Shown piece after piece: positions 8,016 to 11,347 of a DNA stretch of 64,000 bases (positions are counted from its first letter, which is position 1; every line of letters begins with the position of its first letter). Under the pieces are notes generated by a model, which was given only the letters and a program-made list of their open reading frames with translations, was not told where the DNA came from and did no database searches. Source of the DNA: Acidimicrobiales bacterium AG-414-N20 (GTDB lineage: Bacteria > Actinomycetota > Acidimicrobiia > Acidimicrobiales > MedAcidi-G1); NCBI GenBank assembly GCA_003214465.1, contig QCLO01000008.1, positions 1 through 64,000 of the forward strand, given 5' to 3'. The position numbers were made by a program, and so were the translations under genes.

Positions 8016-9227
8016 TCACGAAACAGTGAAAATAAGACCGTGATCGGCTAAATTTCCTATTTCAACTGAACTCAGCTTCAAATCGTCAGCTAAAACTTGT
8101 TCGGTATGTTCTCCTAAGAGCGGCGCTTTGAGAGCATTTCGATCATCTGCTAATGGACCCCCGAAGGATAAAGGCGACCCAGGAACTAAGTGTCTTCCTA
8201 CTCCAGGTTGATCAATTTTGGAGAACATTGGGTTCTCCGTTGAACACCTAGGGTCTTCTTCGAGCATTTGCCTGAAGGTCCTGTAAGGACCCCAGCACAC
8301 TCCACATCTATCAAGCCGTTCAGAAATTTCTTTTAAGGTTAAGTTTTTGAACCATGGATTAAACAAATCTGCAAGCTCTTCTCTCGCCTCAAAACGTGCA
8401 CCTTCATCCGTAAAATCAAGAGCGAGTCTTTGAGATAGTAGAGAAACCTCTTGTTGGGTCTGAGTTGCTTCTAAGAGCCCATCCCACTGTTTTTGCGTAA
8501 TAGCCACAACCATCACGTGTCTGCCATCACGACTCAGAAAATCTCTTCCAAATGCTCCATAAAGATCATTACCGAGTTTTTCCCTTTCCATTCCACCTAA
8601 CTCAACTTCAGTAAGGTCTCCTCGCCATGCAACCGCAGCTAACGCAACGTCTGACAAAGCAAGGCTTACCAACTGTCCCTTCCCAGTTTGTGTTCTATAT
8701 CGATCAGCCGCAACCAAACCTAATGCTGCAGTTTGGCCACAGATAAGGTCCCAAGCAGGCAAAGTATGATTGACAGGACGAGGATCGTCCGCATGGCCCG
8801 TTATTGACGGAATCCCAACTGCACAATTGATTGTGTAATCTACAGCTGTTGTACCGTCATGACTTCCCGTGATCGACACCATCACTAGGTCAGACCTTTT
8901 TTCAGAAAGTTTTTCATAGCTGAGCCAGCCTTTTGAAGGGAAATTGGTTAAAAAATTTCCTGAAGTAGCTATGAGTTCGGATAGCAAATTTTGTATTTCA
9001 GGAGCTCGCAAATCTGCTACTACTGATTTCTTTCCGCGGTTTAAACCATTCCAATAAAGACTTATCCCATCTTCCGTAAGAGGCCAGCGTTTGTAATCGA
9101 TCCCACCGCCGAGTTGATCGAATCTGATTACCTCAGCGCCCATCTGGGCTAATGTCATTCCTCCCGAAGGGGCGGCAACAAAAGCTGAGCCTTCGACCAC
9201 AGAAAGTCCTTCTAGTGGAAGAATCAA
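8016..9227 (-). CDS. Family III CoA-transferase (CaiB/BaiF)
   Basis: A 403-residue type III CoA-transferase, which moves CoA between carboxylic acids through an aspartyl-CoA intermediate. The N-terminus LPLEGLSVVEGSAFVAAP and the MGAEVIRFDQLGG segment are typical, and the likely catalytic Asp is D160 in LPAWDLICGQTAALGL. The start is TTG, with AGGAG 5 nt upstream. It begins 14 bp after the stop of the selenoprotein peroxiredoxin and is probably cotranscribed with it. The donor and acceptor acids are unknown. Confidence 0.85.
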   Translation of the reverse strand: MILPLEGLSVVEGSAFVAAPSGGMTLAQMGAEVIRFDQLGGGIDYKRWPLTEDGISLYWNGLNRGKKSVVADLRAPEIQNLLSELIATSGNFLTNFPSKGWLSYEKLSEKRSDLVMVSITGSHDGTTAVDYTINCAVGIPSITGHADDPRPVNHTLPAWDLICGQTAALGLVAADRYRTQTGKGQLVSLALSDVALAAVAWRGDLTEVELGGMEREKLGNDLYGAFGRDFLSRDGRHVMVVAITQKQWDGLLEATQTQQEVSLLSQRLALDFTDEGARFEAREELADLFNPWFKNLTLKEISERLDRCGVCWGPYRTFRQMLEEDPRCSTENPMFSKIDQPGVGRHLVPGSPLSFGGPLADDRNALKAPLLGEHTEQVLADDLKLSSVEIGNLADHGLIFTVS

Positions 9228-9241
9228 ATCAGCTCCTGTTC

Positions 9242-9709
9242 TCAGCTTTGTGAACGGATTACCGACAAAACTTCGTCACCATGTGTCTGGAAATCTGTAA
9301 TTGAGTCTTGATCCCAAATAGCTGCAATTAACCCTTCAGGGGAAATTAAGAAACTAGTTCTCAAGGGAAAAGCTACAGCTGGGTCGTCCGCAGGCCGAGC
9401 TGCTCCATAAAGCTCCCCTATTTTTCTCTCAGGATCAGCTATTAATGGAAAAGAAAATTCTTGTTCCTCAGAAAATTTCTTTTGTTCGTCTACTGTGTCG
9501 AAACTGGCACCAACTATTACGGCTCCTAGATCTGAAAATTCTGAGACTCTATCACGGAGCCCCTGACCCTGGATCGTTCAACCCGGTGTGGATGCTTTTG
9601 TATACCACCAAAACAAAACCCAGCTTCCTGAAAAATCAGCCAAAGATAGTGTGTTGCCATCTTGATCAAGTGCTGAAAATTTCGGCGCTTCGTTTCCTAC
9701 TTCAAGCAT
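9242..9709 (-). CDS. prxU: Selenocysteine-containing peroxiredoxin (in-frame UGA at the peroxidatic position)
   Basis: Read through one UGA, this frame gives a complete 155-residue thioredoxin-fold peroxiredoxin of the BCP/AhpC-TSA class. It starts MLEVGNEAPKFSALDQDG and contains FWWYTKASTPG-U-TIQGQGLRDR, GASFDTVDEQKKF and SFPLIADPERKIGELYGAA. The UGA codon (9578-9580) falls at residue 44, exactly where the family has the peroxidatic Cys of TPGCT. The resolving Cys found five residues later in BCP is Gln here, so it looks like a one-Sec enzyme that reduces hydroperoxides. The ATG follows AAGAGGAGCA, a strong ribosome site. A SECIS-like hairpin lies at 9540-9566. A standard gene caller would lose the gene. 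Sec machinery is not in this window. Confidence 0.85.
9540..9566 (-). promoter_or_regulatory. Bacterial SECIS-like hairpin for UGA recoding in prxU
   Basis: On the transcript, GGGGCUC pairs with GAGUCUC in a 7-bp stem (with two G-U pairs), closed by the 7-nt apical loop CGUGAUA. Below an A/A mismatch two further pairs (C-G, U-A) extend the stem. The loop begins 22 nt after the UGA and its second base is G. The known bacterial SECIS pattern asks for a hairpin whose apical loop lies about 16-37 nt after UGA with a G in the first two loop positions. Base pairing was worked out by hand. Confidence 0.72.
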
Positions 9710-9778
9710 TGCTCCTCTTTTCTGTATTGGCCACAATAGTGACCATAGCTTCCCAAGTCTCCGAACGGGCTTTATAAA

Positions 9779-11242
9779 TTAAGCCAGCCAAGAAATCGCC
9801 TGAATTTCGCTGTAAGCCTTTAAACCCCATGTGCCACGATCTCGACCTATTCCAGACATCTTGAATCCCCCAAAAGGTGCTTCCATGTGGGGCTGGATAC
9901 TGTTAAGAGCGACGTTTCCGCTTTCCAAACTTTTAGCTATCTGATGAGCCCTAGCAGTGTCCCCCGCGTACACGTAACTAAATAGGCCGTAGTCAGAGTC
10001 ATTGGCCATTGCAATCGCTTCTTCATCATCTTCATGTGGCATCACCACAACAACTGGCCCAAAGGCCTCTTCGCGAACAACGTGCATGTCAGTTGTGCAA
10101 TCAGCCAAAAGTGTTGGTGCTACAAAATAACCTTGTTCATCAGGTCTTTCTCCTCCGCAAACCAATTTGGCTCCAGACTCGACGCCAGAAGAAATGAATT
10201 TTTCAACATTGTCTCTCTGCTGTTCCGAAATCAAAGGGCCCACTAGAGTATCACGCTCCAAGGGGTCTCCTATCTTTAGCATTCCCGCTACAGCCTCGAG
10301 AGTCTCTACTGTTTGATCGTAAATATTTCGATGACAAATGACTCGTGTGGGTGCAGTGCAAATCTGGCCACTATGAAAACCCCAAACACTTGCTATGGCT
10401 CCCATCGCTCCATCTATACTGGCGTCTTCGGTCATAATGAGAGCACCTTTACCGCCTAGCTCCATGAGAACGCGTGTCATAGTTGACGCGCCACTTTCGT
10501 AGATTGACTTACCGACAGAGGTCGATCCAGTGAAACTGATCATGTTCACATCTTTTGATGCAACCATCGCCGCTGGAACTTCAGGGCCGGAAGAAGTAAC
10601 AATATTTATGACTCCTGGAGGAAAACCGGCTTCATTTATGGCTTCACCCAGTCTCAAAATTCCCAAAGGGTCTTGTGGCGCGGGTTTTATGATGCAGGTA
10701 TTACCCATTGCTAGGGCTGGTGCTATTTTGCCTGCCACGTTAGTAAGAGGGAAATTGTAGGGCGTGATGCATAAAACTACTCCAACTGGTTGGTGGTACA
10801 CAGATGCAGCCAAAAGACCTGCAGGCCCAAGTGCAGTTGCACCTTGTTTAACGGGAAGTTCAGATAAATCTATTCGTTGTGGTTTCGAGTAATAACGGAA
10901 ACGGTCTATAAACCCTCCCGCTACTTGCAAAGTTTCTGTAATGTTTATAGTTGATCCAGTCTCCGCCTGAACCAAATCAACCCACTCTGGGGCTTTCTGT
11001 TCAAGCACATCTGCAAGTTTCCCGAGTAGATAACATCTCTGATCTATCGATGTATTTTTCCAGTCGCCTAATGCATCTCTTGCGGCTGCCATTGCATCAG
11101 TTGCCTCACTCAGGGATGCTTCCGGTGCATGACCTACTATCTCCATGGTGTAAGGATTCTGCACTGGATATGTTCCTGCAGTTTCTACCCACTCGCCTCC
11201 TATAAGCAATTTCCATTGCTCTTCCGGGTCTATTTTCGTCAT
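9779..11242 (-). CDS. Aldehyde dehydrogenase family protein
   Basis: A 487-residue NAD(P)-dependent aldehyde dehydrogenase that oxidises an aldehyde to the acid. The nucleotide-binding region has ITPYNFPL and SFTGSTSVGK, the general-base motif is ELGGKGALI, and the catalytic Cys lies in GQICTAPTR. The FRYYSKPQRIDLSE stretch resembles benzaldehyde/aryl-aldehyde dehydrogenases, but the substrate is not certain. I chose the ATG at 11242 over the one 18 bp upstream because AGGGAGAG lies just ahead of it. The peroxiredoxin prxU follows 69 bp downstream on the same strand. Confidence 0.88.
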   Translation of the reverse strand: MTKIDPEEQWKLLIGGEWVETAGTYPVQNPYTMEIVGHAPEASLSEATDAMAAARDALGDWKNTSIDQRCYLLGKLADVLEQKAPEWVDLVQAETGSTINITETLQVAGGFIDRFRYYSKPQRIDLSELPVKQGATALGPAGLLAASVYHQPVGVVLCITPYNFPLTNVAGKIAPALAMGNTCIIKPAPQDPLGILRLGEAINEAGFPPGVINIVTSSGPEVPAAMVASKDVNMISFTGSTSVGKSIYESGASTMTRVLMELGGKGALIMTEDASIDGAMGAIASVWGFHSGQICTAPTRVICHRNIYDQTVETLEAVAGMLKIGDPLERDTLVGPLISEQQRDNVEKFISSGVESGAKLVCGGERPDEQGYFVAPTLLADCTTDMHVVREEAFGPVVVVMPHEDDEEAIAMANDSDYGLFSYVYAGDTARAHQIAKSLESGNVALNSIQPHMEAPFGGFKMSGIGRDRGTWGLKAYSEIQAISWLA

Positions 11243-11347
11243 CACTCTCCCTAAGCCCATTTGAGTATGCTTAAAAGTTCTTTACTAACCTCTGCATTTA
11301 CTACTTTAGTAATCCATTATCAGTAAATATCAAGGATAGAAAACTAT

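Follow-up and report, generated by a model that had tools for sequence, protein, structure and literature searches.

Peroxiredoxins of COG1225 (Bcp) that carry selenocysteine (Sec) in a TxxU motif are an established selenoprotein family (PMC9312934, PMC13188914). They are common in marine metagenomes, with 253 sequences in GOS (PMC2398784), and have been recorded in 78 organisms (PMC5029168). The phylum Actinobacteria is already known to use Sec, with 12 selenoprotein families; in the same survey of sequenced genomes, Sec forms correlate with anaerobic life, and Sec-to-Cys conversions of the peroxiredoxin are not listed (PMC1794560). A comparative study of the lineage considered here describes aerobic heterotrophs and does not mention selenium (PMC10205998). 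Our search, which covered the open literature, found no selenoprotein report for Acidimicrobiia or MedAcidi.

We analyzed a window of 64,000 nucleotides from Acidimicrobiales bacterium AG-414-N20, a member of an uncultured marine lineage (contig QCLO01000008.1, positions 1 to 64,000). The genome is available as 59 contigs and is 85% complete. With a probability of about 0.96, we conclude that this window contains a genuine selenoprotein gene, encoding a PrxQ/Bcp-family peroxiredoxin in which the peroxidatic Cys is replaced by Sec. The support is computational, and both Sec incorporation and activity are predicted.

Results

A peroxiredoxin reading frame with one internal UGA

An initial annotation of the locus had claimed a complete peroxiredoxin with a single in-frame UGA at codon 44 (TPG-U-T), a ribosome-binding site and a resolving Cys replaced by Gln, and had given no strand. 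We recovered each of these features on the minus strand (9709→9242; Table 1). Reading TGA as Sec yields the translation MLEVGNEAPKFSALDQDGNTLSLADFSGSWVLFWWYTKASTPG-U-TIQGQGLRDRV...IRSQS-stop (window:9242-9709:-), in which the residues around Sec are Y-T-K-A-S-T-P-G-U-T, the Pfam AhpC-TSA match runs across the UGA (residues 4-130, 9.6e-33) and position +5 is Gln49. The AGGAG ahead of the ATG has purine-rich counterparts before the start codon in most relatives. The description of the host as AT-rich applies only mildly, with a window GC content of 43%. No minus-strand ORF of at least 80 aa is listed at the locus, and an antisense ORF at 9445–9777 (+) overlaps it. A gene caller might report this antisense ORF; ordinary annotation would miss the peroxiredoxin gene because a stop codon interrupts it midway. 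When the entire window was scanned for frames interrupted by TGA, no further convincing case emerged, and the other frames found were rejected as selenoproteins, since each resembles either an ordinary gene extended upstream or an antisense frame.

Table 1. Features at the peroxiredoxin locus, in window coordinates.
Feature	Position	Strand	Remarks
CaiB/BaiF-type CoA-transferase-like gene	8016..9227	-	14 nt after peroxiredoxin stop; ORF, named by inspection
Predicted Sec-containing PrxQ/Bcp peroxiredoxin gene	9242..9709	-	155 aa; begins with ATG, ends at a terminal TGA
Putative SECIS hairpin	9543..9563	-	GGGGCUC / loop CGUGAUA / GAGUCUC; 7-bp stem; comparative support
Predicted Sec codon UGA	9578..9580	-	codon/residue 44, peroxidatic position, motif TPGU; sole internal UGA
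Shine-Dalgarno AGGAG	9712..9716	-	upstream of peroxiredoxin ATG; read from sequence
Aldehyde-dehydrogenase-like gene	9779..11260	-	69 nt before peroxiredoxin start; ORF, named by inspection

The protein had also been compared with the PrxU class, an assignment that did not hold: it scores 44 bits against the PrxU model NF040737, which has a 270-bit cut-off, and is of the PrxQ/Bcp type instead. The best of all models was NCBIfam NF006960 (Bcp), at 100.9 bits and below its curated 140-bit cut-off; judged by sequence, the protein is a Bcp-like subfamily member rather than an E. coli-type equivalog. It has the traits of PrxQ/Bcp proteins, namely the AhpC/TSA domain, the TxxU motif, the conserved Arg, and a Bcp-type length and fold. 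In an AlphaFold2 model (pLDDT 96.3, pTM 0.91), residue 44 lies close to the N-terminal end of a helix, and the best PDB fold matches of the model are Bcp/PrxQ entries (TM 0.84–0.91). The catalytic residues Thr41 and Arg117 do not vary across a diverse alignment (n=33).

Many PrxQ proteins, though not all, have a resolving Cys at +5; the window copy lacks it. Among 57 Sec-containing copies, this position is occupied by Q in 30, G in 19, R in 4, C in 2, and V and K in one each, and 47 of the 57 proteins have no Cys anywhere. We also observed that the window copy has Thr in place of the PxxxTxxC/U Pro (residue 37, window 9599-9601) and that 7/57 Sec copies overall lack this Pro; its loss is unusual for peroxiredoxins.

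The UGA is conserved and is followed by constrained coding sequence

We compared 60 relatives. Each of the 37 family genomes examined had TGA at codon 44, and the orthologue contained exactly one TGA in all 36 other family members and in three further genomes of the order; among the closest relatives in this comparison, 40/40 keep the UGA. In an even set of 397 genomes of the order, with copies counted at E ≤ 1e-30, we detected 84 copies of the peroxiredoxin in 82 genomes. TGA occupied the Sec codon in 81 of these copies, and the remaining three had TGC (Cys). The occurrence of TGA at the same codon in 37/37 family genomes and 81/84 copies across the order excludes chance or sequencing error.

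Differences within the genus fell on third codon positions in 72% of cases downstream of the UGA, counted past the hairpin described below (989/1376), as compared with 65% upstream (338/523). This third-position bias beyond the UGA indicates that the downstream part is translated and under coding constraint. A UGA also serves as the terminal stop in 32 of 40 peroxiredoxin genes examined.

A conserved hairpin lies downstream of the UGA

The bSECIS model calls for a stem of 4-16 bp, a loop of 3-9 nt with a G within its first two positions, a distance of 16-37 nt from the UGA, and a minimum free energy of at most -7.5 kcal/mol (PMC13188914). The hairpin at this locus starts 14 nt past the UGA, and its geometry agrees with the model: 7 bp, loop CGUGAUA, G at loop position 2 and a spacing of 21 nt from the UGA to the loop. 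The energy of the window copy is borderline: -7.1 kcal/mol for the bare hairpin, slightly weaker than the limit of the model, and -10.2 in 41 nt. In most relatives the energy reaches -7.5 or lower. The single-sequence fold energy of the window copy was not unusual relative to shuffles (z -0.76 and -0.38), so support for the hairpin is comparative.

Among 57 genes, compensatory changes generate the stems GGGGCUC/GAGCCUC, GGGGUUC/GAACCUC and GGGAUUC/GAAUCUC, and a distant group has GGGCCUG/CAGGCCC with a shorter loop. The loop sequence CGUGA is invariant in all 57 genes. We generated a null for the pairing from 300 synonymous-codon resamplings of these genes. Stem cells were paired in 93% of cases, as compared with 60.4% (maximum 64.9%) in the null; full 7-bp stems numbered 46, as compared with at most 5; and CGUGA loops numbered 57, as compared with at most 18. 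Pairing and loop conservation so far above this null mean that protein constraint does not explain the hairpin. The Arg codon at +8 is CGT in 40/40 genes, whereas CGT makes up only 27 of the 221 other Arg codons of those genes. Cys homologues showed 44% pairing in the same geometry.

Sec machinery is present in the genome and co-occurs with the UGA

A full Sec system elsewhere in the genome had been predicted. A search of the genome located all of its parts: a tRNA-Sec with anticodon UCA (64.1 bits, 47-bit cut-off), selA (331 bits, 4.5e-99), selB, which immediately follows selA in the same orientation (5.2e-85), and selD (375 bits, 2.0e-112). SelA was detected in 90 of 99 tested genomes with a UGA-containing peroxiredoxin, and tRNA-Sec in 6 of the remaining 9; the three genomes with neither hit are 69–85% complete. 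In a 61-genome set, the UGA-containing gene was associated with SelA (Fisher p = 4e-5, with kinship ignored). Two genomes of genus g155 (G271, locus L145, and G289) have the UGA-containing gene and tRNA-Sec but gave no SelA match at 94-96% completeness, for which a missing contig, a divergent SelA and another route are alternative explanations.

Two of the genomes with a Cys orthologue, G173 and G408, have neither SelA nor tRNA-Sec at 95–97% completeness; the third, G160, retains both. The G160 copy (L130) differs from L131 and L132 (in G087 and G128) by a Sec-to-Cys swap within one family, and the G160 Cys gene has lost both the stem and the CGUGA loop.

We probed the selenoproteome of the window's genome by family searches, and the resulting tally is a lower bound. 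The selD gene (L080, G000:C13:31458-32492) is itself a selenoprotein gene, with a UGA in the active site GAG-U-GCK. Within this genus its hairpin region has the GUGAY motif of the peroxiredoxin SECIS loop; this motif is absent in other genera. A GUGAU loop common to both genes was considered as a general signal and rejected: it is real here, but selD has different hairpins in other genera. A third selenoprotein is ResA-like (SSW-U-GCAFDLPGW; G000:C19:8394-8726, locus L153), and close relatives with the same UGA occur in other family genomes (L071-L073). UGA-containing thioredoxin-fold frames were also seen in other genomes of the family or order (L070, L074-L079), with the motifs FWAPW-U-PTC or STC (TlpA-like) and SAVW-U-PPC or FLRGFF-U-PNC (AhpC-like). 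The order thus seems rich in selenoproteins.

Gene neighborhood and other peroxidases

In 29 of 30 family loci, the peroxiredoxin gene is followed in the same orientation by a CaiB/BaiF-like homologue, and the 30th locus is cut by a contig end; the CaiB/BaiF-like gene is probably an operon partner of the peroxiredoxin gene. The upstream aldehyde-dehydrogenase-like gene is conserved in synteny within the genus. In the 85% complete genome, we found no other AhpC/TSA-family peroxiredoxin; the remaining PF00578 hits, three in number, comprise two TlpA-like Cys proteins and a third selenoprotein. An MshC-like ligase, a mark of mycothiol, scores 430 bits against a 485-bit cut-off, and use of mycothiol by the host is plausible.

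Evolutionary history

In a maximum-likelihood tree rooted at its midpoint, a single clade (100/98) unites 57 Sec copies with 3 Cys copies and excludes 19 ordinary Cys-PrxQ proteins from the order, and the window copy clusters with those of its own genus. The three Cys copies, two of which have long branches, are nested inside the Sec clade, an arrangement that requires several changes. The simplest reading of these sequences is that Sec was present at the base of the clade and that later returns to Cys occurred. Viral contigs yielded only one weak relative (39% over 99 aa), and there is thus no sign of a phage gene.

Discussion

A gene that is intact apart from one in-frame stop typically points to a young pseudogene, or to an assembly or sequencing error that converts TGC or TGT to TGA. 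Such an origin is refuted by the presence of TGA at the same codon in nearly all copies from many families, and is further opposed by the coding constraint that persists downstream and by the Sec machinery in the genome; we consider its probability negligible. Continuity of the frame alone would fit equally well with UGA being read as another residue, such as Trp or Cys, through a reassigned code or leaky readthrough. However, UGA serves as the terminal stop in most of these genes, tRNA-Sec, selA and selB are present, UGA gives way to a Cys codon (TGC) where the Sec machinery is missing, and the hairpin linked to the UGA is conserved. A residue other than Sec is therefore very improbable.

A further possibility accepts Sec insertion and concerns function: the main role of the protein might be that of a redox sensor or relay, or of a reductase linked to the CoA-transferase/aldehyde-dehydrogenase operon, rather than bulk peroxide removal. 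One-Cys peroxiredoxins are able to act as relays, a CaiB/BaiF-like gene follows in all testable family loci, and the motif Pro is Thr in the window copy. Against these points, the catalytic Thr and Arg are invariant, the fold is that of Bcp/PrxQ, and the protein is the sole AhpC/TSA-family peroxiredoxin found in the genome. We consider such a role rather unlikely and favor a Sec-containing peroxidase.

For this peroxidase, we propose that SelB, with GTP and Sec-tRNA-Sec, would bind the downstream hairpin through its CGUGA loop when the ribosome reaches the UGA, such that Sec is inserted and termination avoided. Translation would end at the terminal UGA, presumably because this codon lacks a downstream SECIS. 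The selenolate would reduce H2O2 or organic peroxides and be converted to a selenenic acid. With the +5 Cys gone and 47/57 proteins free of Cys, an intramolecular selenenylsulfide is impossible in most members, so an external thiol would be needed to resolve the selenenic acid; our guess at the reductant is a mycoredoxin, a thioredoxin or a low-molecular-weight thiol such as mycothiol. The enzyme would thus act as a one-Sec peroxiredoxin.

We also raise, tentatively, a wider scenario that we regard as possible if doubtful. A one-Sec PrxQ may be ancestral in marine Acidimicrobiales and may be the only cytosolic AhpC/TSA peroxidase of streamlined members; a tiny selenoproteome (the peroxiredoxin, SelD and the ResA-like protein) may maintain selection for the complete Sec apparatus in aerobic bacteria of the surface ocean; and the peroxiredoxin may be functionally coupled to the CoA-transferase operon.

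According to the initial annotation, such a protein is not known to have been described in this kind of AT-rich actinobacterium. This stands for Acidimicrobiia in the open literature, but the Sec-containing Bcp family and actinobacterial use of Sec are both known, and the genes described here may already be present among anonymous GOS reads. To judge from the open literature, what is new is an order-wide, apparently ancestral Sec-peroxiredoxin in aerobic marine Acidimicrobiales, with Sec-to-Cys reversions. A core peroxidase of widespread aerobic marine actinobacteria would be absent from annotation because of the UGA at codon 44, and its predicted Sec would tie these bacteria to the selenium supply. 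The clade would also show Sec maintained over a long time at a peroxidatic site in the presence of oxygen, as opposed to the anaerobic correlation reported previously (PMC1794560). The nested Cys copies, of which two come from genomes that lack Sec machinery, would provide natural pairs for testing the benefit of Sec.

Among the closest known systems is the Sec-containing peroxiredoxin family of COG1225 (Bcp), which shares with the protein described here the Bcp subfamily of PF00578, the TxxU motif, Sec at the peroxidatic position and a bSECIS directly downstream. Here, by contrast, Sec predominates in a clade that spans the order, nearly all members lack the resolving Cys, and the host belongs to Acidimicrobiia, which the literature searched for that family does not name. 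PrxU of Eubacterium acidaminophilum (NF040737) likewise has Sec in place of the peroxidatic Cys but belongs to another subfamily, whereas length and fold here are those of PrxQ/Bcp. Sulfolobus Bcp1 (3drn), M. tuberculosis BcpB (5epf) and Xanthomonas PrxQ (5iiz) have in common with our protein the fold (TM 0.86-0.91), TPG(C/U)T and the catalytic Thr and Arg; they differ in that Sec here replaces Cys and that most members of the clade have Gln or Gly instead of the +5 resolving Cys. The one-Cys peroxiredoxin AhpE of M. tuberculosis (1xxu/4x0x), which is reduced by mycothiol/mycoredoxin, is also actinobacterial and likewise has just one reactive chalcogen and lacks a resolving Cys, although it is only a distant sequence match (29 bits) and uses Cys where the protein described here is predicted to use Sec.
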